This document shows positions 2,216-50,833 of a DNA stretch of 64,000 bases, in pieces. The notes under the pieces were generated by a model, which saw only the letters and a list, made by a program, of their open reading frames with translations, was not told where the DNA came from and made no database searches. The position numbers were made by a program, and so were the translations under genes. This stretch comes from a virus. Location of the stretch: IMG/VR virus record IMGVR_UViG_3300027973_000043, positions 18,489 to 82,488 of that record. One strand, 5' to 3'. Position 1 is the stretch's first letter. Every line of letters begins with the position of its first letter.

Positions 2216-2839
2216 ATGACTATTAACCAAGTTTGGACTGAAAAGTATCGCCCACAAAACATTGAAGACGTTATTTTAAATGACAAAGAAAAAGAGTATT
2301 TCTCTTCTCTTAAAGAAGTTCCAAATAATCTTCTTCTTGTAGGAAGTCCAGGCATCGGGAAGAGTACAATTGCAAAGATTCTTGCTAAAAAGTTTTCACC
2401 AAATTCTTACATGTATATTAATGCATCTGAACAAGGTAACATTGATACAGTAAGAAACTTGATTAGTGAATTTATATCTGTAATGAGTATTGACGGCAAT
2501 CAAAAAATTGTTATTTTAGATGAATGTTTGGAAGAAAATACTCTAGTTTCAATTCTAAAAGATGGGTCTGAACAAAAAATTCCCATTAAAGATGTTGACC
2601 CTGATAATGATTTGGTGAAGACGTATAATTTCGATTTATCTCGAATTGAATATAGACCGTTTTTTAAGATTGATAAAGGGGTTCAAGAAGTTTATGAAGT
2701 AGAATTTGAAAACGGAGAGTTTATTGTTTGTACAGAAGATCATAAATGGTACGTAGAAGACTCTATGACAGGAGAAATCACAAGAAAAAAATTAAAAGAT
2801 ATTATTTCTAATAATATTTTGGAAATTCTTACAGTTTGA
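2216..2839 (+). CDS. 44: Sliding-clamp loader ATPase, N-terminal part fused to split-intein N half
   Basis: Residues 1-103 are the start of a T4 gp44-like AAA+ clamp loader: WTEKYRP near the N-terminus, Walker A GSPGIGKST at about 43-51, and the beginning of Walker B (KIVILDE). At residue 104 a Cys starts an intein N half (CLEENTLVSI... with block B-like CTEDHKWY) that runs to the stop at residue 207. The other half of both intein and enzyme is encoded at 3776-4492, after a separate endonuclease gene. This is the 'fractured gene' split-intein arrangement. Trans-splicing would rebuild VILDE-CDGMS, the complete Walker B region, and a protein of about 301 residues, close to T4 gp44. Confidence 0.9.
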   Translation: MTINQVWTEKYRPQNIEDVILNDKEKEYFSSLKEVPNNLLLVGSPGIGKSTIAKILAKKFSPNSYMYINASEQGNIDTVRNLISEFISVMSIDGNQKIVILDECLEENTLVSILKDGSEQKIPIKDVDPDNDLVKTYNFDLSRIEYRPFFKIDKGVQEVYEVEFENGEFIVCTEDHKWYVEDSMTGEITRKKLKDIISNNILEILTV

Positions 2840-2860
2840 CGGAATATATATACTTGCTCA

Positions 2861-2868
2861 TATAAATA
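2861..2868 (+). promoter_or_regulatory. Late-promoter word TATAAATA before the endonuclease gene
   Basis: An exact TATAAATA ends six bases before ATG 2875. It gives the free-standing endonuclease gene its own start signal, separate from the clamp loader halves. A TTGACG at 2836-2841 could also serve as a -35 box. Confidence 0.5.
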
Positions 2869-2874
2869 ATATAT

Positions 2875-3795
2875 ATGGGCGGAAATACATTACGAAGGCA
2901 AAATTATACTAAAGAAGAAATCGAAAATTTTTATAATTTATATAAAAACAAAAATATAGAATTTTATAACCCTATTACTGGAAAAATATTAAAAAATAAA
3001 ATAGCTTGGAAAGCTAGTCTTTCTGTAAAGATGTTTCCTGATTGTCTTCGTTATTTTTTATATCTAGACCATTCACCAGCATATAGTGAATATTCGGGGG
3101 AAAGATTGACATTTGAAGATTTTAATTTAAAGAGAGGCTTTTGTAGATTTTCTAAAGACGAGATAGATAAGAAAGTATGGACTAAAAACTATATTACTTC
3201 TGAAAAAACAAAATCTCTTTTATCTAAAAGAATTAAAGAGATTATGGATTCTGAACAGGGTATAGAAATAAGGAAAAAAATGACTGTTTCCCATAAAAAA
3301 TTCAATAATTCAGAAAGGGGAAAGCAGATACAAAAAGAAAAAGCTAAAAAACAATCAGATTATCTCAAAAAACAAATATTAGAAGGTAAATTTACACCAA
3401 ACGTTACAAATACATGGACACATTGGAATGCTCAAATTACTATAGATGATAATATTTATAAATTTAGAAGTTCATGGGAAGCGTGCTTTTGGTTCTGTAA
3501 TCAGCAGTTATTATACGAAAACATCAGAATCAGAAACGGAGACCGAGTTTATGTTAATGATTTTTATGATGAAAAAAATAGAATTTTATATGAGATAAAA
3601 CCAGTATCTCAATTTAACAAAGAGATCGAAAAAATAAACACTTTTATAAATTATTGTTTGAGTAATAATATGAAATTTATATGGATAAATGAGAATAATA
3701 TACATAATTTTTTAAATATTAATTTAATAAACAATAACGAATCTGCTAAAGAACAATACAAAAAGGTACAAAAATATGCAAAAATTAAGAATTAA
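2875..3795 (+). CDS. Free-standing homing endonuclease between split-intein halves
   Basis: 306 residues, in a different frame from both clamp loader genes, so it is a separate gene. The N-terminal half is lysine-rich and probably binds DNA; it contains a helix-rich stretch with SERGKQIQKEKAKKQ. The C-terminal half has WTHWNAQITI, FRSSWEACFWF, VYVNDFYDEKNRILYEIKP, a layout of acidic and Lys residues like PD-(D/E)XK or Vsr-like nucleases. Known: Vsr-like endonucleases occupy this position in phage fractured genes. The exact family is my inference. Its 3' end overlaps the start of the intein C half by 20 bases. Confidence 0.75.
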   Translation: MGGNTLRRQNYTKEEIENFYNLYKNKNIEFYNPITGKILKNKIAWKASLSVKMFPDCLRYFLYLDHSPAYSEYSGERLTFEDFNLKRGFCRFSKDEIDKKVWTKNYITSEKTKSLLSKRIKEIMDSEQGIEIRKKMTVSHKKFNNSERGKQIQKEKAKKQSDYLKKQILEGKFTPNVTNTWTHWNAQITIDDNIYKFRSSWEACFWFCNQQLLYENIRIRNGDRVYVNDFYDEKNRILYEIKPVSQFNKEIEKINTFINYCLSNNMKFIWINENNIHNFLNINLINNNESAKEQYKKVQKYAKIKN

Positions 3796-4492
3796 GAATA
3801 TCAAAAAACTCGAAACACTATCACATGTATATGATTTGAGTGTAGGCGGAACCCATAATTTTTTCGTCGGACAAACAGGAATTATGACAAGTAATTGTGA
3901 TGGCATGTCGATGACGGCACAGCAAGCTCTTCGTTCAGTTATGGAAGATTATCTTGACTCTGTTAAGTTTATTCTTACAGCAAATTATCGAAACAAACTT
4001 ATTGAAGCATTACGTTCTCGTTGTCAAGAGTTTACTTTTACTTGTTCAGAAAAGCAAGTATTGCAAAGAATCGTAAATATTCTCAAATCTGAGAAAGTTT
4101 TGGTTCAAAAAGAAAATCTTGAGAACATTAGAGGTCTTGTAAAAGATCTTTTCCCTGATATTCGTAAAACAATCAACGAGTTGCAACGATGCTGCATCTC
4201 AGGAACATTCATTTATAGCAAGCAGTTAGGAAATGATTTTGCCAGAGAGATTAAAGAAAATCTGAAAGAGGGTAAAGACGTTTTCCAGATTCGTCAAAAG
4301 ATTGTAGATGAAAGTGACAAGTTCGGAAATGATTATCATAGTCTTATGAAAGACTTGTTCCACTTGTATGTAAGAGAGTGTAATAGTATTGCAAGTATTC
4401 TTATCAGCGAGTATATGTATCGACATTCTTTTGTAATGGACCCAGAAGTTAATTTCTCTGCACTATTATTCAATTTAAAAAGTAAACTCTGA
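3776..4492 (+). CDS. 44: Split-intein C half fused to the C-terminal part of the clamp loader ATPase
   Basis: The first 40 residues (MQKLRIKNIKKLE... VYDLSVGGTHNFFVG... MTSN) are an intein C half with its block F and terminal Asn. The penultimate residue is Ser instead of the usual His. Residue 41 is Cys, the first C-extein residue: CDGMSMTAQQALRSVMEDY, completing Walker B, followed by ILTANYRNKLIEALRSRC, the sensor 1 and arginine-finger region of clamp loaders. Independent start ATG 3776 has a weak AAGG upstream. The C-extein is 198 residues. Together with 2216-2839 it should form the gp44-like subunit. Confidence 0.9.
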   Translation: MQKLRIKNIKKLETLSHVYDLSVGGTHNFFVGQTGIMTSNCDGMSMTAQQALRSVMEDYLDSVKFILTANYRNKLIEALRSRCQEFTFTCSEKQVLQRIVNILKSEKVLVQKENLENIRGLVKDLFPDIRKTINELQRCCISGTFIYSKQLGNDFAREIKENLKEGKDVFQIRQKIVDESDKFGNDYHSLMKDLFHLYVRECNSIASILISEYMYRHSFVMDPEVNFSALLFNLKSKL

Positions 4493-4497
4493 TTAAA

Positions 4498-6258
4498 ATG
4501 AAAGAAAAGAGTTATTTGGTAAGTATGTTATCAGGTATGCAAAAAATCTTAGTCATTTTAATGTTCTCTCTCTTTTCGGTATCTGCTTTTGCAACAAATG
4601 AATTAGACGGCGTTTTAAGAACTTATTACGTTAAAAATACAGTTAAAGGTAATGCAAAATTAACAGATGAATATACTTGGATTAAACGTGTTTATGTTGA
4701 TCTGGCAGGAAGAATTCCTACATATAATGAAATTGATACGTTTATAAAAGATAAAGATTCTCAGAAAAAAGAAAAGACTGTTGATAAAATATTGTTGTCT
4801 GAGGATTATGTTAATAATTATTATAATTTTTGGGCTGATATTTTTCGTATCAGACCTGAAAGACTTGCTGATGATGTAGCACTCTTAAAGTCATATCCTT
4901 ACATAGATTATGTAAAATCATTTGTAAGAAACGACAAATCCTACAAAGATTTTGTTTATTCTTTACTTTCTGCGGATGGTAAATTCTCTGACAATGGTGC
5001 TGCTGGATATATGCTTCGTGACAATGGTATGCCTCTTGACAATCTTGCTACAAGTTTACAGCTTTTTATAGGCAAAGACTTAGCTTGTGCGCAGTGTCAC
5101 GATGATCCATTTCAAGACTATACTCAAATGCAGTTTTATCAAATGGCATCTTTTTTTAACTCTTTAGATACAAGAGAAAGAAGAAAAGAATATAATGATA
5201 TTATTAAAAAAGTAGATAACGAGATTAAAGAGATTACAAAAAAAGACCGTATAGACAATAATGTTCGTCAATTATTATCAGCAAATCTTTTTAATTTAAA
5301 AGATGATGATAATAAAACATTAAAACTTCCTCATGATTATAGGTATAAAGATGCAAAACCTTTTGACGTTGTTGAACCAAATACACTTGACAGCAAATTT
5401 AAAAGTATAAAAGAAAATAAAAGAGATGTTGCTTCTAAATGGATTGTTGAACACGAAGACTTTACACACTCTATTTCAAATAGAGTGTGGGCGAATATTG
5501 TAGGAAAAGCACTTATAGTTCCTGAAACAAACTTTATTTTATCAGATTATCCAGAAGGTGAAGTGTTAACTTTTCTTGGAGATTATTTCAAACAACATAA
5601 CTACAGCATTAAAAGTCTTCTTCGTCTTATATCAACCAGTGACTTTTATAACAGAGAAGCATATACTGGAAAAGATGAAAGTTATGCTTATCAATCTATA
5701 CTTGTAAAAAGAATGAATGCATACCAGATTTGGGACAGCATTTTAACTCTTGTAGTTCCTGATGTAAATTATAGTCGTTTTTCTTTTTCTGAATATTCTA
5801 ATCTTGTAAAAATTGATTGGAAAGATATTAATGGAAAATATCTTCTTCAAAAAGTTGAAGACCTTCGAAACTATGATCGTCTAATTAATCAAAAATTTTT
5901 AAAATATAAAAATATAGATTTGGTGCGTGCATCATATCTTATGAATCGTAACTCTTTTGTAGGTCAATTTTTAAAAGAATATGGCAGTAGTGATCGTGTT
6001 CTTATTGACTCAAGTAATGACAAAGGTAGTATAACACAAGTTTTAACTATTATGAATTCACCAATCGTTGAACTTTTAATAGATAAAAAAAGTCAAATTT
6101 ATCAAAACTTCTCAAAAGATAAACAAAAGGACAGCTTGTTTTTAAGTATACTAAGTCGTCCTAGTAAAGTTGACGAAAGAGTAATTTTATCAAAAACTCA
6201 AACAGATGATCTTGTATGGGCTTTGATTAACTCAAGAGAATTTTTATTTAGAAAATAA
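4498..6258 (+). CDS. Exported DUF1549/DUF1553 family protein
   Basis: Up to 586 residues. A Sec-type signal peptide is visible (MQKILVILMFSLFSVSAFA, from a possible second start at 4537). The DUF1549 part has WIKRVYVDLAGRIPTYNEI and the family hallmark LACAQCHDDPF, a CxxCH. The DUF1553 part has SNRVWANIVGKALIVPE and ends DLVWALINSREFLF, as the family does. Known: in Planctomycetes and Verrucomicrobia such genes are paired with DUF1501 genes; the biochemical role is not established. Here it starts five bases after the clamp loader and lies before a DUF1501 gene, so the host-type pair is kept in the phage. Confidence 0.85.
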   Translation: MKEKSYLVSMLSGMQKILVILMFSLFSVSAFATNELDGVLRTYYVKNTVKGNAKLTDEYTWIKRVYVDLAGRIPTYNEIDTFIKDKDSQKKEKTVDKILLSEDYVNNYYNFWADIFRIRPERLADDVALLKSYPYIDYVKSFVRNDKSYKDFVYSLLSADGKFSDNGAAGYMLRDNGMPLDNLATSLQLFIGKDLACAQCHDDPFQDYTQMQFYQMASFFNSLDTRERRKEYNDIIKKVDNEIKEITKKDRIDNNVRQLLSANLFNLKDDDNKTLKLPHDYRYKDAKPFDVVEPNTLDSKFKSIKENKRDVASKWIVEHEDFTHSISNRVWANIVGKALIVPETNFILSDYPEGEVLTFLGDYFKQHNYSIKSLLRLISTSDFYNREAYTGKDESYAYQSILVKRMNAYQIWDSILTLVVPDVNYSRFSFSEYSNLVKIDWKDINGKYLLQKVEDLRNYDRLINQKFLKYKNIDLVRASYLMNRNSFVGQFLKEYGSSDRVLIDSSNDKGSITQVLTIMNSPIVELLIDKKSQIYQNFSKDKQKDSLFLSILSRPSKVDERVILSKTQTDDLVWALINSREFLFRK

Positions 6259-6259
6259 T

Positions 6260-6430
6260 ATGGAAGAAATATTAATACTTCAAGAAGAAGAAAACGCAAG
6301 AAAAGAAAAAAGATTTTACGATTCTATTGTAGCTGCATCAAGTTACATAGAAAATAATAAATCTAAAAATATTGAAGATATAGAACAAAATTATGGAAAA
6401 AAACCTCAACCTCAGTTGCTCTCTTGGTAG
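6260..6430 (+). CDS. Small hypothetical protein between the DUF1549 and DUF1501 genes
   Basis: 56 codons from an ATG two bases after the previous stop (MEEILILQEEENARKEKR...). It is charged, helix-prone and lacks a signal peptide. Its 3' end overlaps the DUF1501 gene by 38 bases in another frame. The tight spacing suggests it is translated as part of the operon, perhaps only as a coupling peptide. No family recognised. Confidence 0.5.
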   Translation: MEEILILQEEENARKEKRFYDSIVAASSYIENNKSKNIEDIEQNYGKKPQPQLLSW

Positions 6431-7685
6431 AAGAGATTTCATCGAAAAACTCGCATACACAACATTTGGTGTTAGTGTATTAAGTACTCCTTCTTTAGCA
6501 GAAAATGTTTCTTCTGCTTTTTTCGGCAAAGCTAAACACATTATTTACATTTATAACAATGGTGGTATGAGTCATTTAGATTCATTTGATCCTAAAGGTG
6601 AAAATGTAATGGGTGGCGTTAAAAGTGTTCAAACAAGTGGAGACTTTCAAGTTTCTGAATATTTCAAAGAATTAGCAAAGCACGGTGACAAGTTTTCTCT
6701 ATTAAGAGGAATGACATCTAAAACAGGCGCACACTCACAAGGTCAATATCTTATGAGAACTTCTTATAATAAAAACGGTTTAACAATTCACCCTGCAATG
6801 GGTGCAATAAGCTCATATCTATTAGGCAAAAGTCATGATAGCATTCCTGATAATATTCTTATCTCTGGTGATAATGATCATCCAAGAGAAGGTTATCTAG
6901 ATAAAAAATTTACTCCTCTTCCTATTATAAATCCAAACGAAGGACTTCGTTTTAGTAAATTGTCTGTTAGTGAAAGTGGTCTTAACAATAGACTCAGCGT
7001 GTTAAATGCTCTTGACAGAAATTTCCGAGAAGGCTATGGAGTAAAGGATGTTAATTCGTATAATGTTCTTTATGATGAAACTCTTAAACTTTTAAAAAGT
7101 GAAGACTTAGACTCTTTTGATCTTACCAAAGAAACCCCTGAAAATCGTGACCGTTATGGACGTAGCAACTTTGGTCAAGGTTGCCTTCTTGCTAAACGCT
7201 TAATCTCTCGCGGAGTGCGTTACATAGAGATTGGTGACGGTGGCTGGGACATGCACAATGACATTAGCACAGCAATGACTAACAAAGCAGAATACTATGA
7301 TAAAGCATTAGCTTCTCTTTTTAGTGATTTAAGTGAAAGTGGATTATTAAAAGAAACTCTTGTTGTAATTGCAACAGAGTTTGGTAGAACAATAGATTCT
7401 AAAAACGAGAATAATTTACTTGGTTTAAATAAAAATGAAGGTCGTGACCATCATCCAAGTGCTTTTTCATGCCTAATTGGTGGATGTGGTCTTGGTGGTA
7501 AGGTTGTTGGTAAAACCGACGAGAATGGAAGTAAGGTTGTAGAACGTCCAACTGAAATTGGAGAACTTAATGCAACGATTGGGTATCTTCTTGGGATTAA
7601 ACATGATCACGTATGGATGAGTCCAAGTAACCGACCATTCACAGTTGGTAATAAATCTGAACCTATAAAAGAATTAATAGGATAA
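6393..7685 (+). CDS. DUF1501 family protein with Tat signal peptide
   Basis: 430 residues. The N-terminus has a twin-arginine signal, LGRRDFIEKLAYTTFGVSVL, followed by a cleavage-like SLAE. The mature part carries family blocks HIIYIYNNGGMSHLDSFDPK, GQYLMRTSYN, EIGDGGWDMHND, VVIATEFGRT and GRDHHPSAFSCLIGGCGLGG. Known: DUF1501 proteins belong to the alkaline phosphatase/sulfatase-like superfamily and are exported folded. Partner is probably the DUF1549/DUF1553 protein upstream. At least two more DUF1501 3' ends lie near the left edge, so the phage holds several paralogues. Substrate unknown. Confidence 0.9.
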   Translation: MEKNLNLSCSLGRRDFIEKLAYTTFGVSVLSTPSLAENVSSAFFGKAKHIIYIYNNGGMSHLDSFDPKGENVMGGVKSVQTSGDFQVSEYFKELAKHGDKFSLLRGMTSKTGAHSQGQYLMRTSYNKNGLTIHPAMGAISSYLLGKSHDSIPDNILISGDNDHPREGYLDKKFTPLPIINPNEGLRFSKLSVSESGLNNRLSVLNALDRNFREGYGVKDVNSYNVLYDETLKLLKSEDLDSFDLTKETPENRDRYGRSNFGQGCLLAKRLISRGVRYIEIGDGGWDMHNDISTAMTNKAEYYDKALASLFSDLSESGLLKETLVVIATEFGRTIDSKNENNLLGLNKNEGRDHHPSAFSCLIGGCGLGGKVVGKTDENGSKVVERPTEIGELNATIGYLLGIKHDHVWMSPSNRPFTVGNKSEPIKELIG

Positions 7686-9011: not shown

Positions 9012-11537
9012 TTATTTAATATAGAAAAGAACAAATTTAGATTCTCCTGTATCAATTTCTGCTAATTTTGTCAAGTTATTACCACTTAAACGACTAGCTT
9101 TTCTAGCAGAGTCAAATAAACGTATAGTATCACTTAATCCGTTGAATGTTATATATTTGTATCCTCTATTACTAATACGATTTAATAATGTGTTTAACAA
9201 CGGTTTTACATGTAAACGATAAGGTTTATCAACAACAAGATTAGAAACGTAAAATGTATTTTTTGGAGTACATATATTTTCTATTCCATTATTAATAACA
9301 GATTGTTCAAATTTATCATCGAAAAAGGTAATTTCACTAGTGTCCACGTATTCTAGCATATTATATTCACTATTCACATCCATACGATAACCATAACCAT
9401 AACCTACTAATTGGTTTGAGTCATCAAATATACCTTCTCCTATAAAACCGCTCATTGTTGAATCTCTAATTACTGAACTTGCATCTGCTGCATAGTCTGA
9501 TGAGAAATTTCTATCTTCAATACTGTTTATATTTGTTGAATTAGAACGAATTACATCTGTTGAGAGAGAATTTAGTGTTGCTTCTGTTAAACTTTGTTTG
9601 GCTTCTGTAAGACTTTTATTAGAATACTTTGGAGGTTCTGCAATACTTTGTAATATAATAGGTGGAATAACTTGACCGTTTAATGATACATATTTGGCAT
9701 AATCATAAGAATATTCTGGATTTTCTGCAATACTTTGTAATATAATAGGTGGAACATTTTGACCTTTTAATACATCTCTGGCATAAAGATAAGAATATTC
9801 TGGACCTTTTGCAATACTTTGTAATATAATAGGCGGAACATTTTGACCTTTTAATACATCTTTAGCATAATTATAAGAATAAGATGTATTTTCTGCAATA
9901 CTTTGTTCTATAATAGGCGGAACATTTTTTCCTTTTAATACATCTTTAGCATAATTATAAGAATAATATGTATTTTCTGCAATACCCTGTTCTATAATAT
10001 CTGGAACATTTTGTCCTTTTAATACATCTTTAGCATAATTATAAGAATATTCTGGACTTGTTGCAATACTTTGTAATATAATAGGCGGAACATTTTTTCC
10101 TTTTAATACATATTTGGCATAATTATAAGAATAATATATATTTTCTGCAATACTTTGTTCTATAATATCTGGAACATTTTGACCTTTTAATACCTCTTTA
10201 GCATAATAATAAGAATACGCTGGATCTTTTGCAATACCCTGTTCTATAATATCTGGAACATTTTGTCCTTTTTCTAATACATTTACAGCATAATCATAAG
10301 AATATTCTGGACCTTTTGCAATACTTTGTAATATAATAGGTGGAACATTTTGTCCGTTTAATACATCTCTGGCATAAAGATAAGAATACTCTGGATCTTT
10401 TGCTATATTTTCAAAATATCTTTCCTTTTGTTTTTCAGAGAAATATTTTTCAGTCAAATCATAAGGAATAATTTTTTGTAATTCAGAAGCTAATAAAAGT
10501 AATTTTTCAAAATCTTTATCATTTACATTTTTTTCAATTATATTCCAATTATCAGAGTCAAACTGATCTGTTTGAATATACATTTCATAATCTTCATATC
10601 CTGATAATTTAACAAAACCAATGTCACCTTCATCAATAGATTGAAATCTTTTTTCTTTTTCACCGTATGGTATAAATTGAAATACATTTTGATTAAACGG
10701 TTTTTGTAACATAGGAAATTTATTCTCTAATTCTTTTTCAGATATATTATATAAATCTTCAATCTGTTTTCCTGAAGGTTCTACAACAGTATATCCGAAT
10801 GTATTACTACTACCTTCTTCATTTCCCATTGCATCAATAACAATTAGTTCATTTTCTTTTCTATTTTTAGGTATAATGAAATATGTAGTCATTCCTAAAT
10901 TTTGCATTTTACCCATTCTATATTTCCAGTAATAATTACCAGACTTTGTAGAAATACAAAGATTAGTATTTCTTCCATAATAAATACATTTTTGTTTAGA
11001 ATCTGCTTTAAAAATAGTTATACTATTATCTTCATAAACTTTATCTTCTTCTTCGTTCATTATTTTTCCACTAAATTCTTCTTTTTTTTGATAGCGATGA
11101 ATAGTTTCTATTAATTTTATTGTTTTACTTTTAATTAATTCTAACTTTTCTGCCTTTTTATCAGGTTTGAATAATCCTTTGGATTTGATTTCGTTTTGTA
11201 AATTTATTACATAATCTGATAATAATTTTTTACCCACAGATGTTTCTGAGTTTAGATAAGCAGAATATTCTCTTTTGATGTTTTCTATAGATAAACCGAT
11301 ATTTTCTCCAACCATATACACATATGTTAGTGCAACAAGATCAGAATCTTTTTTAGCTTTTTCTCTACCTTCATCAACTCTTACATTATTATAAATATCT
11401 AAAATTTTATCAACATCCTCTGGTGGTAAACCATTGTTATTAACTATTTTTGTTATTTGATTAACTGATGATGTATAATCTTCTGCAATAATAGTTTGTG
11501 GAAGAAAAACATTGAAATAAAATTCCTTGAAAGTCAT
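9012..11537 (-). CDS. Large repeat protein with putative capsid-targeting N-terminus
   Basis: 841 residues from ATG 11537 (MTFKEFYFNVFLPQTIIAED). Residues about 10-370 form a soluble domain without a family I can name (CIYYGRNTNLCISTKSGNYY, MTTYFIIPKNRKENELIVID). Residues about 378-640 hold nine and a half near-identical repeats of 28-29 residues, consensus IAxxPEYSYxYAxxVLKGQN followed by VPPIILQS. The C-terminal part (VDKPYRLHVKPLLNTLLNRI, YKYITFNGLSDTIRLFDSAR) looks like an N-acetyltransferase-like fold, low certainty. TAATAAATAGAAAT before the ATG is late-promoter-like. Probably a late, virion-associated protein. Confidence 0.75.
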   Translation of the reverse strand: MTFKEFYFNVFLPQTIIAEDYTSSVNQITKIVNNNGLPPEDVDKILDIYNNVRVDEGREKAKKDSDLVALTYVYMVGENIGLSIENIKREYSAYLNSETSVGKKLLSDYVINLQNEIKSKGLFKPDKKAEKLELIKSKTIKLIETIHRYQKKEEFSGKIMNEEEDKVYEDNSITIFKADSKQKCIYYGRNTNLCISTKSGNYYWKYRMGKMQNLGMTTYFIIPKNRKENELIVIDAMGNEEGSSNTFGYTVVEPSGKQIEDLYNISEKELENKFPMLQKPFNQNVFQFIPYGEKEKRFQSIDEGDIGFVKLSGYEDYEMYIQTDQFDSDNWNIIEKNVNDKDFEKLLLLASELQKIIPYDLTEKYFSEKQKERYFENIAKDPEYSYLYARDVLNGQNVPPIILQSIAKGPEYSYDYAVNVLEKGQNVPDIIEQGIAKDPAYSYYYAKEVLKGQNVPDIIEQSIAENIYYSYNYAKYVLKGKNVPPIILQSIATSPEYSYNYAKDVLKGQNVPDIIEQGIAENTYYSYNYAKDVLKGKNVPPIIEQSIAENTSYSYNYAKDVLKGQNVPPIILQSIAKGPEYSYLYARDVLKGQNVPPIILQSIAENPEYSYDYAKYVSLNGQVIPPIILQSIAEPPKYSNKSLTEAKQSLTEATLNSLSTDVIRSNSTNINSIEDRNFSSDYAADASSVIRDSTMSGFIGEGIFDDSNQLVGYGYGYRMDVNSEYNMLEYVDTSEITFFDDKFEQSVINNGIENICTPKNTFYVSNLVVDKPYRLHVKPLLNTLLNRISNRGYKYITFNGLSDTIRLFDSARKASRLSGNNLTKLAEIDTGESKFVLFYIK
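9620..10407 (-). repeat. Tandem coding repeats, about 84 bp each
   Basis: Nine full copies and one degraded copy of an 84-87 bp unit lie inside the 841-residue gene. Units differ at a few codons, and two subtypes alternate (VPPIILQS and VPDIIEQG/S), which suggests growth by unequal recombination. Similar AxxVLKG repeats are common in phage and viral proteins of unknown role. Confidence 0.9.
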
Positions 11538-25297: not shown

Positions 25298-26518
25298 TCA
25301 TATTTTTAAGATATACACTCTCGATTTTTTGTTAAATTCTTCGTTCAACGACGGGCTAACCAAACTTGCGTTTGATGAACTCCCATCTCCAGAAGCGTCA
25401 ATTCGGGAAGAACTTTCCCTATAAATTTGTTTTAGATTCAAACTCGCATTTAAATCTCTGTCTATTTTCATATCGCATACCTTACATTCAAATATTCTGT
25501 CTGTCAACTTCAAATCTGAATTTTTCCATCCACAACATGAACATAGTTTAGAACTAGGATAAAAAGTATCTGCAAAGATAACTTTTCTATTATTCCATTC
25601 TGCTTTGTAAATGATTTGACGGCGAAATTCGTGAAGTCCAACATCACTAATAGCTTGCGCCAAACAATGATTTTTCATCATATTGCTCACTTTCAAATCT
25701 TCCAAAACTATAACTTGGTTTTCGTCTATAATTTTAGAAGTGATTTTATGCAAGCAATCTTTACGAATGTTTGATATGTGAAAATGTAATTTCGCTAATT
25801 TTTGTTTTGCTTTTCCATAATTTTTACTTCCTTTTTTCTTTCTGCTTAATTGTCTTTGTTTTCTTTTAAGTTTCTTTAAATTATTTTTAAGTGCTTTGGG
25901 ATTTTCATAAGCTGTCCCGTCTGAGCAAGTAGCCAGAGTTTTAATCCCTAAATCTATCCCTATTACCTCGTTCTTAGCGTCAGAATGCTCTCTGTCGGGC
26001 GTTTCTACTTGAACTGATACAAACCACTTACCCGCTCGTTTGGAGACTGTAGCAGACAATATTTTACAATCAGTAGGAATATAATCTTTCTCCGCTAATT
26101 TAAGTTTTCCAATTCTAGGTAATTTAATACAACCAGATTCAACCGAAATTACTCCATCCAATCTAAATGATTGCTTTTCGTTCTTTTTGGATTTGAATTT
26201 GGGGAATCCTTTCTTACCTTTGACCTTTTTCTTGCAACGGATGAAGAAATTTTGAAATGCTTTGTCGCAATCTCTTAGTGCATTTTGCGGCGAAGTCTTG
26301 CTTGAATTATACATCCAAGGAACATCTGATTGTTTTAGCTTGTTTAACTCTCTATGTAATTCAATAGCATTAGGAATCTTTTCTTTTTTATCAAACGATT
26401 CTTTCTTATTAGATAATGCCCAATTATATGCCCATCTAGCACAACCAATATGCTGCAATAACAAGTTTTGTTGCTTGTTATTGACATCTAGTTGAACTTT
26501 ATAGGCGCGTAAAATCAT
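25298..26518 (-). CDS. tnpB: TnpB RNA-guided endonuclease of an IS607-type element
   Basis: 406 residues from ATG 26518, which overlaps the methyltransferase stop (ATGA). RuvC residues are visible: Asp in GIDLGIKTLATC, Glu in VIVLEDLKVSNM, Asp in IDRDLNASLNL. A zinc ribbon CSCCGWKN...CKVC lies before the last motif. N-terminal RAYKVQLDVNNKQQNLL and CARWAYNWAL are typical of TnpB. Known: TnpB cuts DNA at sites matching a guide RNA from the element end, which favours retention of the element. All catalytic residues are present, so it may be active. Confidence 0.93.
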   Translation of the reverse strand: MILRAYKVQLDVNNKQQNLLLQHIGCARWAYNWALSNKKESFDKKEKIPNAIELHRELNKLKQSDVPWMYNSSKTSPQNALRDCDKAFQNFFIRCKKKVKGKKGFPKFKSKKNEKQSFRLDGVISVESGCIKLPRIGKLKLAEKDYIPTDCKILSATVSKRAGKWFVSVQVETPDREHSDAKNEVIGIDLGIKTLATCSDGTAYENPKALKNNLKKLKRKQRQLSRKKKGSKNYGKAKQKLAKLHFHISNIRKDCLHKITSKIIDENQVIVLEDLKVSNMMKNHCLAQAISDVGLHEFRRQIIYKAEWNNRKVIFADTFYPSSKLCSCCGWKNSDLKLTDRIFECKVCDMKIDRDLNASLNLKQIYRESSSRIDASGDGSSSNASLVSPSLNEEFNKKSRVYILKI

Positions 26519-27240
26519 TTTAATCTTTCTAAACAAATATCGTAATACTCTTGTTCCTTTTCAATCCCAATGAATTGACGATTGAGATTTTTAGCGGCAA
26601 GTAAGGTTGAGCCTGAACCAGCACAATTATCAAGAATTAATTCCCCCTCATTACTATATGTTTTAATCAGATACTCTAAAAGTTCTACGGGTTTTTGAGT
26701 TGGGTGCAACTTTCCGTTACGATTTGGGACAACTTTAAAATCTAAAACAGAACTAGGTTGAACAAAATTTGGGTCATATTTCTTTTTGATTTTATCTAGT
26801 TTTACATGATTAGAATCGCCACAATAATGGTCATAATTATAACAAGCCTTGCCAACACCAACTCGCTCTTTCATAATAGGGTTATATGTAGGTTGTTCGC
26901 GATGGAAAACAAGAATGTCTTCGTGATATTTCATTGGTCTATACTTTGCCGCCGACATTCCAGTTGGAACGTTCTTATTCCAAACTAAAGGATACTTAAA
27001 ATTTTTTCTGTTGGATAGTATCAAATCCGTGGTAAATGGTTGACTGGCAAATAATACAACTGCCGCATTAGACTTGCATATTCTGTTGTATTGTTCCCAC
27101 AATTCATCAAACGGAATAATTACATCCCATGCACAAGAAATAGTGCCATATGGTAAATCACATAAAATCATATCTATGCTCCCGTCTGGAATATTTTTCA
27201 TCAACTCTAAACAATCTCCATACCAAATTTGTTGTTTCAT
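26515..27240 (-). CDS. DNA methyltransferase (beta-type N6-adenine or N4-cytosine) as transposon cargo
   Basis: 241 residues. Motif IV DLPYGT is near residue 30 and motif I DNCAGSGSTLLAA near residue 210, so the order is that of beta-class amino-methyltransferases. KLHPTQKPVELLEYLIKTYS precedes motif I as usual. GGAGG is placed six bases before the ATG, and both ends overlap tnpA and tnpB by four bases. No restriction gene is adjacent. It may protect element or phage DNA from host restriction or from TnpB cutting; that is inference. Confidence 0.9.
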   Translation of the reverse strand: MKQQIWYGDCLELMKNIPDGSIDMILCDLPYGTISCAWDVIIPFDELWEQYNRICKSNAAVVLFASQPFTTDLILSNRKNFKYPLVWNKNVPTGMSAAKYRPMKYHEDILVFHREQPTYNPIMKERVGVGKACYNYDHYCGDSNHVKLDKIKKKYDPNFVQPSSVLDFKVVPNRNGKLHPTQKPVELLEYLIKTYSNEGELILDNCAGSGSTLLAAKNLNRQFIGIEKEQEYYDICLERLK

Positions 27241-27869
27241 TCTGCCTCCTCCTTTTCTTTCTTTTTACGGTTCTGACTTGAACGCCTTCCGTAAATTTTC
27301 GCCGAAAATGATGCCATCAAAGATAGAATATCTTCCACCAGTTCGTTTTCAAAACTCTTACTCATTACCTCTTCAACCTTCTCAATCCTAACTCCATAAG
27401 AATTAAAATAAGACAAAAGATAATTAAAACAAAATCTCGACAATCTATCTTTATGTTCAATTAAAACCACATCAATTTCTTTCTGCTCAACCAATTCAAA
27501 GAGTTTCTGCAATTTCTTACGATTATCATTCATTCCCGAACCAACTTCGTCAAAAACAGCAATGATAGAATAACCGCGCTTTAATGCTTCCGTAGTCATT
27601 CTGCCAACTTGTCTTTCTAAATCACCTTTGGTCTTCTGCTCATGCGAGCTAACGCGACAATAAATGCCCACACGCTTACCATCTGACACTTTAACGGGTT
27701 CTACATAGATTCCTGCCAACTTCTCAATATCGGCTCTATAATAACGTCTATGACCACCTTCTGTATGAAATGGTGTTAATTTGCCTTCACGCTCCCAATT
27801 TCTAAGGGTTTCGTCAGAAACGCCCAAAATAGATGCAGCATCGCTGATTGATAGAATCTTTTTATCCAT
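27237..27869 (-). CDS. tnpA: IS607-type serine recombinase TnpA
   Basis: 210 residues. N-terminal MerR-like helix-turn-helix (LSISDAASILGVSDETLRNW, GHRRYYRADI). The serine resolvase part begins VGIYCRVSSHEQKTKGDLER with the nucleophilic Ser, followed by VIAVFDEVGSGMNDNRKKL and IEHKDRLSRF. The HTH-before-catalytic-domain order is the hallmark of IS607 TnpA. It moves the element without specific terminal repeats. Confidence 0.95.
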   Translation of the reverse strand: MDKKILSISDAASILGVSDETLRNWEREGKLTPFHTEGGHRRYYRADIEKLAGIYVEPVKVSDGKRVGIYCRVSSHEQKTKGDLERQVGRMTTEALKRGYSIIAVFDEVGSGMNDNRKKLQKLFELVEQKEIDVVLIEHKDRLSRFCFNYLLSYFNSYGVRIEKVEEVMSKSFENELVEDILSLMASFSAKIYGRRSSQNRKKKEKEEAE

Positions 27870-39540: not shown

Positions 39541-40707
39541 TTAGAATCCTCGATTTTGACGAATAGGAGTGCCTGTTAAAACTGAACCGTTACGATGTTT
39601 AATTGTAAATCCTTTTCGATTTTGTTCAAAAAATACAATATCGTTACCATTCCACTGAAAAAATTTACCTTTTTCAGCACTTTTATCTTTTGAGTAAAGA
39701 AAGCAGTGTACACTTGGATATTGTGAAGTGTCTTTACAGTAATCATCAAATGGTTTACAATATAATGATATATAAACACTGTCAGTAAAAATACAAAGAT
39801 TATCAAATTCTTGTTTGTTTTCTAAAGACAACTCTTCATCATTCATTAAAGAATAACACAAGTCATTTGCACGTTCAATTTCATTTTTGTCTTTAAGACT
39901 TTTCTTTGGAATTGCTATTTTAGTAGTTAATTGAACAGTATATGTATCAGGGCGTTCTACACAAACATTAAAGAACTCTGAAAAGTCTTTTGGTAGTTCG
40001 TTGTAAAGATTACATTCATCAATTATACAAACAAGAGAATCAACAGATAATTGTGGTAAAATAGATAATTGGTTTTTAACAATTTCAGCATTGTTTTTAA
40101 GTTTTAATCGGTCATCAATAATCTCACAAATAAGTTCTTCTGAAAGAAAATCATAGTGTTTATGATAACGCACACGGCTAGGACGAGAATTAAAAAACTC
40201 TCCAATATCAGATGAATTAGATGTTAGTAAAAATAAATGTCTAGATTTTGCAACACCATCTAATACACTCAAGAAAAAGTTTCGAGACTCCTCACTGTCA
40301 TAAATCTTTTCAAACTCATCAATAAAAATAATTGACGGGGTTTTAATACTTTCAAAAAATTCCAAAAAATTACAATCGTTAAAAGCTTCTGTTAAAAGAA
40401 TAATAGGCATATTACTTTTAACACAAATAGATTTCGCTTCTACAGTTTTACCAGTGCCTTTTGGGCCAGAAAGTAAAACTCCCATACCTTTTTTAAAAGA
40501 CTGATATGTATTTAATACTCGATCTGGAAAATTAGAATTGCCGTAAATTTTCTTTGGTAAATCCATTTTTTCACGTTCAATCAAATGAAATCCTTTTAAT
40601 TGAGAGTAGGAAATTGCATAATTTCCAACTTCTAAAGAACCTTTAATACTTTCTGCATCAAGAATAGATGTTATTTTACCGTTTTTAATATAGTGAGTTT
40701 CAGACAT
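39541..40707 (-). CDS. AAA+ ATPase
   Basis: 388 residues. Walker A VLLSGPKGTGKTVEAKSI, Walker B SIIFIDEFEKIYD, sensor 1 HLFLLTSNSSDIG and an arginine-rich segment FFNSRPSRVRYH are visible. N-terminal about 70 residues and the C-terminal part (VLTGTPIRQNRGF) lack a clear match. Such phage ATPases act as remodelling or unfolding motors; its target is unknown. A TTGCAA/TACTAT promoter precedes it. Confidence 0.85.
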   Translation of the reverse strand: MSETHYIKNGKITSILDAESIKGSLEVGNYAISYSQLKGFHLIEREKMDLPKKIYGNSNFPDRVLNTYQSFKKGMGVLLSGPKGTGKTVEAKSICVKSNMPIILLTEAFNDCNFLEFFESIKTPSIIFIDEFEKIYDSEESRNFFLSVLDGVAKSRHLFLLTSNSSDIGEFFNSRPSRVRYHKHYDFLSEELICEIIDDRLKLKNNAEIVKNQLSILPQLSVDSLVCIIDECNLYNELPKDFSEFFNVCVERPDTYTVQLTTKIAIPKKSLKDKNEIERANDLCYSLMNDEELSLENKQEFDNLCIFTDSVYISLYCKPFDDYCKDTSQYPSVHCFLYSKDKSAEKGKFFQWNGNDIVFFEQNRKGFTIKHRNGSVLTGTPIRQNRGF

Positions 40708-45689: not shown

Positions 45690-46088
45690 ATGAAAGAAAC
45701 AATTGCACAACTATTAAAAGTAAAAGATTTTCCATTCCTTATTAAAAATAAGAATAATAAAGAAATCTATTTTGAAGATTCAAATGGATTTTGGTATAAG
45801 TGTGAGTATAACTTGAATGGTAAACAAATCTATTCTGAAGATTCAGATGGATATTGGAATAAGCATGAATATGACCAGAATGGTAAAGAAATCTATTTCG
45901 AAGATTCAGATGGATATTGGATTAAGTGTGAGTATAACTTGAATGGTAAAGAAATCTATTTCGAAGATTCAGATGGATATTGGTTTAAGCGTGAGTATAA
46001 CTTGAATGGTAAAGAAATCTATTTCGAAGATTCAGATGGAACTATCATGGATAACCGAACAGAAATTATTGAAAATACTTTATGTTGA
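45690..46088 (+). CDS. 21-residue (YD-like) repeat protein, copy 1, C-terminus lost
   Basis: 132 residues. N-terminal cap MKETIAQLLKVKDFPFLIKN, then five units of 21 residues with consensus EYDxNGKEIYFEDSDGYWxKR. The other copies end ...TLEEIADKLGLxVENIRIKD, but here the sequence ends IIENTLC at a TGA inside a new TTGACA box. The repeats recall RHS/YD-type beta repeats, yet no signal peptide is present. Function unknown; maybe a binding protein with variable repeat number. Confidence 0.75.
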   Translation: MKETIAQLLKVKDFPFLIKNKNNKEIYFEDSNGFWYKCEYNLNGKQIYSEDSDGYWNKHEYDQNGKEIYFEDSDGYWIKCEYNLNGKEIYFEDSDGYWFKREYNLNGKEIYFEDSDGTIMDNRTEIIENTLC

Positions 46089-46241
46089 CATTTATAGTTA
46101 AGTTATTTTACTTTTTATACTCTTGGTGCATCATGAAACTTTTTAAGTTTCTGTGGTATTATAAATTTATATCAACTCTTTGTAAGAATAGTGCAACAAG
46201 AAATTGTAAAAGAGCCGAAGAAGCTTTTAATGAATTTTAAT

Positions 46242-46454
46242 ATGAAAATTAACGCAAAACAATCAGTCTATAATGGTGTAAAGGTCATCCCTTGCATTGT
46301 GACTACAGAATTTAGAAATGAAGTATCTAAACGTCTCAAATCAAAAGGAATGGATGTGATTACTATTGAACACGGCGGAATTTTCTTTGCTGGTGATTCG
46401 CCTGATGAAATTGATATGGGAGATTTAGAACAATACATTTATCATTTGACTTAA
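46242..46454 (+). CDS. Small hypothetical protein
   Basis: 70 residues from ATG 46242 (MKINAKQSVYNGVKVIPCIV). SKRLKSKGMDVITIEHGGIF and an acidic end (SPDEIDMGDLEQYIYHL). No family recognised. Confidence 0.55.
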   Translation: MKINAKQSVYNGVKVIPCIVTTEFRNEVSKRLKSKGMDVITIEHGGIFFAGDSPDEIDMGDLEQYIYHLT

Positions 46455-46480
46455 TTTTAAACTGGTTAAGATTAATAATA

Positions 46481-46708
46481 ATGGAAATAACTGAAATTAA
46501 AGAAACTACAAAGTACAAAGCTATTTCTTTTGAAAAAGAAGAAAAAGTTTATTTAGAATGTGCTTCTTCCAAACTATCTGGAAATTATTCACTATTTTAT
46601 TATAGTGACGGTTACTTGACAGCATATAACGAAGATGATAAAGTGGAGAACTACTTTACAGTAGAATATTTTAAAACTAAATTCCTTAAACAACATGAAA
46701 TTCAATAA
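46481..46708 (+). CDS. Small hypothetical protein
   Basis: 75 residues, acidic, beta-rich (YKAISFEKEEKVYLECASSK, YSLFYYSDGYLTAYNEDDKV). Overlaps UvdE by 14 bases, so it may be coupled to it. Confidence 0.55.
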   Translation: MEITEIKETTKYKAISFEKEEKVYLECASSKLSGNYSLFYYSDGYLTAYNEDDKVENYFTVEYFKTKFLKQHEIQ

Positions 46709-47633
46709 TTGGAACCTGTGCTGTATCAGTAAAACACTGTCTGATAACGGCAATAACTTTAAAACCATGACTCTTACACAGTTCAACAAACAGTCTCCCA
46801 AAGATGCTTTATCTGAACTATGTTCGCGTATTTTACACAACTTTAAAAACACCGAAAAAACAATTCGGTTTTGCCAGCTTAATAATATCTCTGGCTATCG
46901 TCTTTCATCTTCACTCTGTCCTATCATTACTCATGACAGTGTAAACATGCAGGTTTGTGATTTGCCTAACTTTTCTGATATTCAAGAAGTATGCTCTCGT
47001 ATCAAAAATTTACTGGCAATTCAGCCAATAAAAATTTCTGCTCATCCAAGTGAATACATTTCACTTTCTACTAGTGACGAAAATATTCTCAAAAACACTT
47101 TTCGTGACCTAAATCAGCATGGCGAGATTTTTGATTTGCTGGGTTTGCCTCTTGATTACTCTGCACCAATGAACATTCATGTGCGTAAAGACGGTAATAC
47201 GTCTGACATTGTATCTTCTGTTATGCGTAACTACGACCGTTTATCTGATAATGTTCGTAAGCGTTTAGTTTTTGAAAATAATGACAATAAAAACGGCACA
47301 TGGAGTGTGCGTAATTTGGTTAGACATTTTCATGAAAAATATAGTATTCCTATTACTTTTGACACTTTACACCATTATATTCTCCCTGATGGCTTAAGCG
47401 AACGTGATGCATTTGAACTTGCATATTCAACATGGGGCAGCTATACTCCTGTGTTCCATTACAGCGAGGGTATTATAGAAAATGGTGTTATTACTCGTAA
47501 GCATCGTGACATGCCAACTAATGTTCCTCATAATTATAATCCTAATGTTTTTTGGGACATAGAACTTAAATTTAAAGATTTAGCAATTTTTGAGCTTCGC
47601 CGCTTAAAAGAATTAAATTCGCCCATTTATTAA
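46695..47633 (+). CDS. uvdE: UV damage endonuclease UvdE
   Basis: 312 residues. Cuts DNA 5' to UV photoproducts and other lesions using a TIM barrel with divalent metals. Family blocks: WNLCCISKTL at the start, RFCQLNNISGYRLSSSLCP, ISAHPSEYISLS, LVFENNDNKNGTWSV and ITFDTLHHYILPDG, with the His, Glu and Asp metal ligands in place. Gives the phage its own excision repair. Codon use resembles neighbours. Confidence 0.92.
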   Translation: MKFNNWNLCCISKTLSDNGNNFKTMTLTQFNKQSPKDALSELCSRILHNFKNTEKTIRFCQLNNISGYRLSSSLCPIITHDSVNMQVCDLPNFSDIQEVCSRIKNLLAIQPIKISAHPSEYISLSTSDENILKNTFRDLNQHGEIFDLLGLPLDYSAPMNIHVRKDGNTSDIVSSVMRNYDRLSDNVRKRLVFENNDNKNGTWSVRNLVRHFHEKYSIPITFDTLHHYILPDGLSERDAFELAYSTWGSYTPVFHYSEGIIENGVITRKHRDMPTNVPHNYNPNVFWDIELKFKDLAIFELRRLKELNSPIY

Positions 47634-47661
47634 AATCACATTAAATAATAATTAAATAATT

Positions 47662-47811
47662 ATGTTAAATAATATTCAAAATATAAATTCTGGTTGTCTT
47701 CAACTTATTTTAACTATTTTAGTTCTTTCTGCACTATTTTTCGGATTGCCTACCCCTTGGGGAATCTTTGAAATTGATTTGTTGCCTCCAGGAATTTATC
47801 TCAATCGTTAA
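47662..47811 (+). CDS. Small membrane protein
   Basis: 49 codons with one membrane segment (LQLILTILVLSALFFGLP), then a short tail PGIYLNR. Might be a holin-like or envelope-active peptide, but nothing proves it. Confidence 0.5.
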   Translation: MLNNIQNINSGCLQLILTILVLSALFFGLPTPWGIFEIDLLPPGIYLNR

Positions 47812-47821
47812 AAAGGGTGTG

Positions 47822-47947
47822 ATGTATGAAGCTTTGAAAGATATTGTTGAAGAATCTTGCGAAGAAAACGTTGGTAAGATTGCAGGTGATGCATTAAAAG
47901 TAGTTGATAAATTGTGGGATAAACTCTATAGTAAAGAACAAGTATGA
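47822..47947 (+). CDS. Small helical protein
   Basis: 41 codons: MYEALKDIVEESCEENVGKI, then AGDALKVVDKLWDKLYSKEQ. The last 19 codons lie in the 66-bp repeat that recurs at 48458-48523. Its stop overlaps ATG of a MTIED... frame (ATGA), which in the second copy is the start of the gene at 48510. Confidence 0.5.
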   Translation: MYEALKDIVEESCEENVGKIAGDALKVVDKLWDKLYSKEQV

Positions 47948-47957
47948 CTATTGAAGA
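47892..47957 (+). repeat. 66-bp direct repeat, left copy
   Basis: Exactly repeated at 48458-48523. The two copies flank the ADP-ribosyltransferase-like gene. The left copy ends the 41-residue gene, the right copy leads into the gene at 48510. Confidence 0.95.
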
Positions 47958-47968
47958 TAAATAATATT

Positions 47969-48439
47969 ATGACCTTTAATCAATTATACAACAAAATAAT
48001 CAACGAAAACACTGCACCAAAAAGATTTTATCATGGTAGTATGACTGAACTTCCAGTGGGAACTATACTAAAACCCAATGATAATTATGAAGAAAATTGG
48101 TCAAATACTTATTTTTATTCTGTTTTGGAATATTATAGACCAAAAGATATGCTATCACATAAGAATAGTGTTTTTATGTGTGGAAATGACGAAGATGTTG
48201 AGTTAGCGGGCGGTGGAACAGAATATCTATTTGTAGTAGAACCTTTAGGTAAAGTCGAGCGACATGATGTTAATTGGAGTTCTGAAATATCCGTGTTAAT
48301 GTCGGATGGGTTAGAAATAGATGATCCTGAAGTAATTGAGGCTGCTGCGAATTACTGGAACGGAACACCGCATTATAATGAGCAAGTTTGGGAATACCTA
48401 ACACCTTTTGCTAAGATTATTTCTGTCGAAGAATACTAA
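47969..48439 (+). CDS. ADP-ribosyltransferase-like protein with putative capsid-targeting N-terminus
   Basis: 156 residues from ATG 47969, directly after AGATAAATAAT. The N-terminus MTFNQLYNKIINENTA has the shared tag motif. RFYHGSMTELPVGTILKPND, then SVFMCGNDEDVELAGGGTEY and LFVVEPLGKVERHDVNW recall NAD-binding folds of phage/bacterial ADP-ribosyltransferases (H-G in strand 1, aromatic and Ser-Val-Phe strand). T4 Alt is a packaged, injected ADP-ribosyltransferase, so the combination is suggestive. Catalytic residues cannot be confirmed by eye. Flanked by perfect 66-bp repeats. Confidence 0.65.
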   Translation: MTFNQLYNKIINENTAPKRFYHGSMTELPVGTILKPNDNYEENWSNTYFYSVLEYYRPKDMLSHKNSVFMCGNDEDVELAGGGTEYLFVVEPLGKVERHDVNWSSEISVLMSDGLEIDDPEVIEAAANYWNGTPHYNEQVWEYLTPFAKIISVEEY

Positions 48440-48457
48440 CTATGTTAAGAGCATATA

Positions 48458-48523
48458 CATTAAAAGTAGTTGATAAATTGTGGGATAAACTCTATAGTAA
48501 AGAACAAGTATGACTATTGAAGA
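48458..48523 (+). repeat. 66-bp direct repeat, right copy
   Basis: Second copy of 47892-47957. Confidence 0.95.
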
Positions 48524-48671
48524 GAAAACAATTAAACTAGCAGAAGCAGCGGGATTTACCGACATTATGCTACCTATGGGCGTTGACAAATCTCTAGAAA
48601 ACGTTAAAATAAAAAGTCCTATCGAATTCAACCCTATTGGTAAAGTGTCCGTAGTAAATATGGTGTGGTGA
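48510..48671 (+). CDS. Small hypothetical protein
   Basis: 53 codons: MTIEEKTIKLAEAAGFTDIM, LPMGVDKSLENVKIKSPIEF. The left repeat copy holds only its first five codons before diverging. The 3' part runs into the inverted repeat at 48617-48713. Confidence 0.5.
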   Translation: MTIEEKTIKLAEAAGFTDIMLPMGVDKSLENVKIKSPIEFNPIGKVSVVNMVW

Positions 48672-48713
48672 AATGTTCAGAATTGAACGCCATTAGGGTT
48701 GAATTCGATAGGA
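48617..48713. repeat. Long inverted repeat, 20-bp perfect arms
   Basis: TCCTATCGAATTCAACCCTA (48617-48636) and its exact complement (48694-48713) enclose 57 bases; with one mismatch the arms extend to 24 bases. The left arm is coding. It may be an attenuator hairpin, a processing site or a footprint of a mobile element. Confidence 0.8.
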
Positions 48714-48732
48714 AATTAAAAGCAATTTTATT

Positions 48733-49182
48733 ATGAAAGAAACAATCGCGCAATTTTTAAAAATAACAGATTTTCCTTTTCTTATCAAAGAAAAGAATAA
48801 CAAAGAAATCTATTCTGAAAAATCAAATGGATATTGGTTTAAAAAAGAGTATGATTTGAATGGAAAAGAAATCTATTATGAAAACTCAGATGCATACTGG
48901 ATTAAGCGTGAATATGACCAGAATGGTAAAGAAATCTATTTTGAAGATTCAAAAGGATATTGGAATAAGAATGAATATGACCAGAATGGAAAATTAATCT
49001 ATCGTGAAAACTCAGATGGATATTGGTCTAAACGTGAACATGACCAGAATAGTAACGTAATTTATTATGAAAACTCAGAAGGAACTATCATTGATAACCG
49101 ACCAAAGGTTATTGAGTTGACTTTAGAAGAGATTGCAGATAAACTTGATATGAATGTAGAAAACATTCGTATTAAAGATTAA
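48733..49182 (+). CDS. 21-residue repeat protein, copy 2
   Basis: 149 residues: cap MKETIAQFLKITDFPFLIKE, five 21-residue units (EYDLNGKEIYYENSDAYWIKR type), then TIIDNRPKVIELTLEEIADK and LDMNVENIRIKD. The C-terminal EIADKL...VENIRIKD looks like a small helix-turn-helix. It is the first of five head-to-tail copies separated by 12-13 bases. Confidence 0.8.
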   Translation: MKETIAQFLKITDFPFLIKEKNNKEIYSEKSNGYWFKKEYDLNGKEIYYENSDAYWIKREYDQNGKEIYFEDSKGYWNKNEYDQNGKLIYRENSDGYWSKREHDQNSNVIYYENSEGTIIDNRPKVIELTLEEIADKLDMNVENIRIKD

Positions 49183-49194
49183 AAAAATAAAATT

Positions 49195-49644
49195 ATGAAA
49201 GAAACAATAGCACAATTTTTAAAGGTAACAGATTTTCCATTCTTTATTAAAAATAAGAATAATAAAGAAATCTATTCTGAAGATTCAGATGGATATTGGT
49301 TCAAGCATGAATATGATCAGAATGGTAATCAAATCTATTTCGAAGATTCAGATGGATCTTGGATTAAGTGTGAGTATAACTTGAATGGTAAAGAAATCTA
49401 TTTTGAAGATTCAAATGGATTTTGGTATAAGCGTGAATATAACTTGAATGGAAAAGTAATCTATCATGAAGATTCAAAAGGATATTGGTTTAAGCGTGAG
49501 TATGATCAGAATGGTAAACAAATCTATCATGAAGATTCAAAAGGAATTATCATGGATAACCGACCAAAAATTATTGAATTGACTTTAGAAGAGATTGCAG
49601 ATAAATTAGGATTGAGTGTAGAAAACATTCGTATTAAAGATTAA
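49195..49644 (+). CDS. 21-residue repeat protein, copy 3
   Basis: 149 residues, five units, full C-terminal cap (TLEEIADKLGLSVENIRIKD). The leader AAAAAATAAAATT before the ATG is the same as before copies 1, 4 and 5. No Shine-Dalgarno site and no promoter of its own, so the array is one transcript. Confidence 0.8.
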   Translation: MKETIAQFLKVTDFPFFIKNKNNKEIYSEDSDGYWFKHEYDQNGNQIYFEDSDGSWIKCEYNLNGKEIYFEDSNGFWYKREYNLNGKVIYHEDSKGYWFKREYDQNGKQIYHEDSKGIIMDNRPKIIELTLEEIADKLGLSVENIRIKD

Positions 49645-49656
49645 AAAAATAAAATT

Positions 49657-50106: not shown

Positions 50107-50118
50107 AAAAATAAAATT

Positions 50119-50820: not shown

Positions 50821-50833
50821 AAGAAATCTTTTT

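Follow-up and report, generated by a model that had tools for sequence, protein, structure and literature searches.

A T4 gp44-type clamp loader gene very probably fractured at Walker B by a split intein whose halves flank a predicted homing endonuclease gene

We describe a locus at 2216–4492 of the window, a 64,000-nucleotide (nt) stretch of viral DNA (positions 18,489 to 82,488 of IMG/VR record IMGVR_UViG_3300027973_000043, here G000), in which the gene for a T4 gp44-type clamp loader is very probably broken at the DE/C junction of its Walker B motif by a split mini-intein, with a mobile nuclease gene in the gap and the loader made whole by trans-splicing. An earlier sequence-only reading had proposed a clamp loader fractured in this way. 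The proposal is supported by profile matches and alignments, and also by intein-free and contiguous alleles of the same gene, by trees and by a fold comparison.

The three open reading frames (ORFs) of the locus, 2216–2839, 2875–3795 and 3776–4492, lie exactly where they were first placed (Table 1). The first encodes 207 residues, comprising clamp loader residues 1–103, which end in VILDE as had been read, and then, from Cys1 onward, the 104-residue N half of the intein (IntN). The middle ORF, of 306 residues and in a different frame as claimed, is a free-standing nuclease gene, assigned as such by conserved residues and fold only. The last ORF encodes 238 residues and begins within the final 20 nt of the nuclease ORF; it holds the 40-residue C half of the intein (IntC), ending in M-T-S-N, the TSN of which had been noticed, followed by CDGMS and the remainder of the clamp loader. 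No reading frame connects the two intein halves. Because two further IMG/VR contigs, from samples that possibly overlap, carry the locus with 100% protein identity, an error in a single assembly is unlikely.

The two extein halves match the phage clamp loader profile phrog_168 contiguously, and the joined exteins match T4 gp44 (E 1.2e-31) and the small subunits of RFC in the PDB. This AAA+ clamp loader large subunit homology, of the T4 gp44 type, spans both halves and is contiguous at the junction, which supports the assignment of ORFs 2216–2839 and 3776–4492 to a clamp loader with predicted activity. The insertion point directly follows the glutamate of Walker B. As a consequence of this position neither half has a complete ATPase site: the N protein carries Walker A and the DE pair, and the C protein carries sensor 1, the SRC arginine finger and the lid. 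It is sound to expect that the unspliced halves would be inactive. No further clamp loader was found in G000, a partial record, or in seven larger contigs (154–242 kb) with fractured alleles; an intact copy elsewhere would have spoken against the earlier proposal. One candidate, the AAA protein at 39541–40707, matches phrog_168 at 2.4e-7 but has only a generic AAA domain, and we discount this match because the profile also matches in all 14 control genomes.

Both intein halves score as halves of a Hint domain, as had been predicted. IntN reaches 29.0 bits against TIGR01445 (cut-off 24.5), IntC 27.9 against TIGR01443 (cut-off 15.6), and the two joined 45.0 against PF14890 (cut-off 35.8). All features of a class 1 intein are present, namely Cys1, the block B T..H, the block F motif, the C-terminal Asn and the +1 nucleophile. 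An AlphaFold2 model of a contiguous relative (L009), to which the window halves align, has a mean predicted local distance difference test score (pLDDT) of 95.4, and its PDB fold matches among those listed are nearly all inteins, including Npu DnaB (E 6.6e-8), NrdJ-1, gp41-1 and Npu DnaE. Together these results support a naturally split class 1 intein, which would splice in trans.

Relatives were collected by IMG/VR alignment searches that gave the best 80 of 89 loci with the N half and 43 with the nuclease. DECL[DE]E and CTEDHK were part of the patterns used in these searches, so alleles that carry either motif are over-represented and the conservation of both is in part a product of sampling. 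In the context of the clamp loader, 57 distinct IntN sequences form 51 clusters at 90% identity, all inserted at the same position. In the 50 clusters for which a C half is present, the Asn/Cys junction is always kept, and the residue before the Asn is His in 37, Ser in 11 and Gly in two; the penultimate Ser of the window intein, once thought unusual, is thus shared with a fair number of relatives and, by alignment, with Npu DnaE, a fast intein.

The sample shows a range of allelic states at one site. In 38 of the 51 clusters the intein is split and accompanied by a nuclease gene, sometimes damaged (e.g., L066). Six clusters (L009, L034, L065, L070, L088 and L091) have one contiguous ORF, one of them with a weakly matching IntC, and on their reading frames these are ordinary cis-inteins. 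Three clusters are split with a nuclease remnant, three are split with no nuclease detectable by profile, and one ends at a contig edge. Contiguous and nuclease-less alleles are each represented by one to three contigs, so that an assembly error is possible for L009, L070, L065 and L033, which are single contigs. A fractured clamp loader also occurs in a Nitrosarchaeum metagenome-assembled genome (L138); the gp62-like gene downstream of it indicates that this is probably a misbinned contig of viral origin.

Empty sites are also present. A syntenic intein-free allele (L024), 82–84% identical to the window exteins and sharing a DUF1549-type gene downstream, reads straight across the insertion point, as do L019–L021 and L025. 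In the extein tree the window lies among empty alleles and groups with L024 at 100/95, which is most simply explained if the window lineage gained the intein recently; intein loss in several lineages may account for the same tree. Comparison with L024 around the insertion revealed no clear local dip in nucleotide identity that would mark a co-conversion tract.

In a tree of 45 inteins, strongly supported branches require that the contiguous and split forms have interchanged five times or more; being unrooted, it gives these changes no polarity. Near-identical inteins can differ in state. The split L060, which has a nuclease gene, and the contiguous L070 are 97–98% identical in intein DNA and 73–76% in their exteins, and L058 (with nuclease) differs from L048, in which a 43-nt gap takes the place of the nuclease gene, by what resembles a deletion. 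We consider it fairly likely that one intein family at one site has switched repeatedly between contiguous and fractured forms through gain and loss of the nuclease, and that loss can leave a clean split intein (L048, L033).

Comparison of close pairs bears on both selection and mobility. The ratio of nonsynonymous to synonymous divergence (dN/dS) of IntN is 0.02–0.12 in 10 of 11 pairs, and that of the nuclease is 0.11–0.41. Both intein halves are under purifying selection. Synonymous (silent) divergence (dS) runs, in the order N-extein, IntN, nuclease, IntC, C-extein, 0.26, 0.14, 0.04, 0.05 and 0.22 for L016/L017, and 0.71, 0.23, 0.10, 0.14 and 0.54 for L044/L051. The intein values are 0.19 and 0.05 for L060/L070, against 1.2–1.4 in the exteins, and 0.07 and 0.04 for L058/L048, against exteins at 1.1 or saturated. 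Because silent divergence in the intein and nuclease is so far below that of the exteins, the element is read as moving horizontally among diverged phages, in the pattern expected from homing. Recombination by other means is a possible cause of the same pattern.

Twelve residues are invariant among 30 homologues of the nuclease. Residues common to the family include R198, W201, E202, E215, D229, F230, E240, K242 and P243, a set resembling that of PD-(D/E)XK enzymes. The N-terminal part is variable, with zinc-finger-like cysteines in some members. The TnsA-like profile PF08722 is matched by 24 of the 30 homologues, the window copy falling below the cut-off. A structure model of the nuclease (pLDDT 90.8) gave Foldseek matches to TnsA (probability 0.97, but E 0.13), to I-Bth0305I (probability 0.41) and to other restriction-like nucleases, none significant by E-value. 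An EDxHD/Vsr-type assignment, the type that the earlier reading named for fractured genes in general, is not supported: none of the 30 members matches a Vsr Pfam family, the conserved set is E, D and E-x-K without an invariant His, and TnsA ranks above I-Bth0305I. The enzyme looks closer to TnsA-like PD-(D/E)XK nucleases than to Vsr, and it is most likely a homing endonuclease, predicted to cut intein-free alleles. Related nucleases occur in other split inteins (L097, L098, L100) and free-standing in T4-like phages.

The insertions in these other split inteins are also at Walker B. In L097 (13–3161) and L098 (1000–3856), related split inteins with related nucleases lie at DE/C of an AAA ATPase, presumably MoxR-like by its motifs, and an intact clamp loader adjoins. 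In L100 (4608–7301) a related split intein and nuclease lie at DE/C of a helicase, presumably UvsW-like on the same grounds. Three P-loop ATPases in all are thus hit at Walker B.

These data are best explained by a model in which a gp44-type gene carries a class 1 mini-intein immediately after its Walker B glutamate codon, and a mobile nuclease gene within the intein coding sequence splits both gene and intein into separate genes. The N-extein–IntN and IntC–C-extein proteins would be translated separately, their intein halves would associate into one Hint domain, and trans-splicing would yield a clamp loader of 301 residues (...VILDE-CDGMS...). The nuclease would cut intein-free alleles, so that intein and nuclease would be copied in together. 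Translation of IntC may be coupled to that of the nuclease gene: with the nearest start codon taken as that of IntC, it overlaps the nuclease end by 1–65 nt in 41 of 42 listed fractured loci, 13 of which have an overlap of exactly 20 nt, and this suggests such coupling. The nuclease gene had also been credited with its own TATAAATA. Chance would give 12.7 copies of this motif in the window, where 13 occur, and no more than seven of the 42 fractured loci have it in their gap; we rejected it as a late promoter 5′ of the nuclease gene.

Several points weigh against this model. G000 is an 82-kb fragment, and another copy of the clamp loader could lie outside the record. The dN/dS of IntN rises to 0.42 in one very close pair, L058/L048, which has few changes. 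The modeled Hint fold is that of the single chain of L009, a contiguous relative. No PDB entry matches the nuclease significantly (best Foldseek E 0.09), and its predicted activity therefore rests on conserved residues and the transfer pattern.

A gene in pieces can also work without splicing. In T4-like phages a homing endonuclease has split genes whose pieces assemble, as for NrdA of phage Aeh1 (PMC2988022), and the two halves described here might likewise associate non-covalently into a working ATPase, the intein halves being relics. We regard this as very unlikely, because the intein halves are under strong purifying selection and keep Cys1, the block B His, the terminal Asn and the +1 Cys, and because the cut falls inside Walker B, where each half would hold a piece of intein at the active site. 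Even less credible is a decayed, non-functional clamp loader in a phage that relies on another copy or on the loader of its host. Gene loss occurs in phages and the record is incomplete, but the search of G000 and the seven large contigs argues against it, both extein halves are conserved under purifying selection, and the same arrangement recurs in many divergent lineages. Group I or group II introns that carry nuclease genes are common in T4-like phages, and removal of such an intron from the RNA could in principle explain the interruption. We give this almost no weight: Rfam returns no intron match, group I included, between 1900 and 4800, both flanks are conserved as intein protein with boundaries at Cys1 and Asn/Cys, and contiguous alleles read through as a cis-intein.

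The remaining alternative accepts trans-splicing of the clamp loader and takes the middle ORF for a passenger gene with a restriction-like fold rather than a homing nuclease. It draws on the weak fold similarity, on a window copy that is above no Pfam cut-off and on the lack of a known target. It is nevertheless improbable, given a nuclease at this insertion in most clusters, the lowest silent divergence in nuclease and intein among close pairs, and the relatives of the enzyme in other split inteins and in T4-like phages.

Genes fractured by split inteins and associated with free-standing endonucleases were reportedly described by Dassa and colleagues in 2009, mainly from phage metagenomes and in eight enzyme types. 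That survey is said to be the source of the gp41-1, NrdJ-1 and IMPDH-1 inteins, and half of its loci are said to have had Vsr-related nucleases. The cyanobacterial DnaE intein (Npu/Ssp) is likewise of class 1, naturally split and hosted by a gene for DNA replication, but its halves are encoded far apart on the chromosome with no endonuclease gene between them. The window intein matches Npu DnaE in sequence and, through the model of L009, in fold, and both end in Ser-Asn. The locus resembles the fractured genes reported by Dassa et al. (2009) in that a split intein interrupts a replication gene and its two halves flank a nuclease gene. The host gene here is a clamp loader cut at Walker B, the nuclease is predicted to be of the TnsA-like PD-(D/E)XK type rather than Vsr-related, and the same intein also exists in contiguous and in nuclease-less forms. 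In its predicted restriction-like fold, and as a nuclease gene of T4-like phages, the nuclease resembles homing endonucleases of the EDxHD/Vsr family such as I-Bth0305I, and TnsA; it differs in that its conserved residues are E, D and E-x-K, with no invariant His.

Archaeal RFC inteins interrupt a homologous clamp loader gene, at K51/T52, A76/S77 and S138/C139 of Archaeoglobus fulgidus RfcS (AfuRfcS; sites a, b and c; PMC2814812). The window insertion aligns with Glu110/Ala111 (E110/A111) of this protein and so differs from all three sites, and its halves are separate genes. Site a (Lys/Thr) recurs in phages: a second intein lies in Walker A (GK/T) of the clamp loader in L018, L065, L099 and L110–L113. 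A literature search on inteins with clamp loader or gp44 returned no phage case, the enzyme list of Dassa et al. (2009) lying outside its coverage, and two intein queries found no clamp loader intein in 50,697 records of cultured phages. Fractured genes as such are already known; the clamp loader as host gene and the insertion site appear to be unreported, and the allele series is the more novel part.

Because the interrupted gene encodes a core replication ATPase and the break falls in the catalytic motif, these phages would need protein trans-splicing to replicate. The series of empty, contiguous, fractured with nuclease, and nuclease-decayed or -deleted alleles allows a direct test of the proposal that split inteins arise when a nuclease gene invades. 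It also provides some 40 natural split inteins, including that of the window, for use in protein engineering.

Table 1. Coordinates of the fractured clamp loader locus in the window and of second inteins in relatives (aa, amino acids)
Feature	Position	Strand	Evidence or remark
Clamp loader N-extein, 103 aa	2216..2524	+	phrog_168 positions 8-109, E 3.1e-30; alignment with T4 gp44 and AfuRfcS
N-extein motifs	2216..2524	+	Walker A GSPGIGKST; first half of Walker B, ...VILDE
IntN, 104 aa; Cys1, block B C-T-E-D-H-K	2525..2836	+	TIGR01445 above cut-off; conserved in alignment
IntN stop codon TGA	2837-2839	+	
TATAAATA, inside the 35-nt gap 5′ of the nuclease gene	2861..2868	+	Possible late promoter, putative; chance frequency
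Free-standing putative homing endonuclease, 306 aa	2875..3795	+	C-terminal PD-(D/E)XK-like domain (E202, D229, E240-x-K242); variable N-terminal part
20 nt shared by the end of the nuclease gene and the start of the IntC gene	3776..3795	+	Likely translational coupling
IntC, 40 aa; block F VYDLSV..THNFF, block G ...MTSN	3776..3895	+	TIGR01443 above cut-off; conserved in alignment
Clamp loader C-extein, 198 aa	3896..4489	+	phrog_168 positions 104-308, E 1.5e-36; PF21328 Gp44_lid above cut-off
C-extein content	3896..4489	+	Cys+1, remaining Walker B, sensor 1, SRC arginine finger, lid, collar
C-extein stop codon	4490-4492	+	
Walker A second inteins, some split or frameshifted	L018 5226-6555; L065 3349-6236; L099 4261-5561; L110 3750-4880; L113 2222-4880		

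Downstream of the clamp loader, at 4498–7685, the phage carries DUF1549/DUF1553 and DUF1501 genes, the former type also near the L024 clamp loader. These families are associated with planctomycete-type bacteria. A DUF1501-like gene ends at position 52, a zinc-finger-rich putative nuclease occupies 49–1092 on the opposite strand, and 1005–1202 holds a 3′-end remnant of a second DUF1501-like gene. On the minus strand at 25298–27869 is an IS607-type element in which an N6/N4 DNA methylase gene lies between those for the MerR-resolvase TnpA and TnpB, overlapping both neighbors by a few bases. Two repeat-rich regions complete the picture: an 841-residue ORF at 9012–11537 (minus strand) with a run of ∼24-residue repeats like YSYNYAKDVLKGQNVPPIILQSIA, and tandem paralogous ORFs (MKETIAQ...) at 45690–51295 built of repeats like YxENSxGYWxKxEYDxNGxxI.
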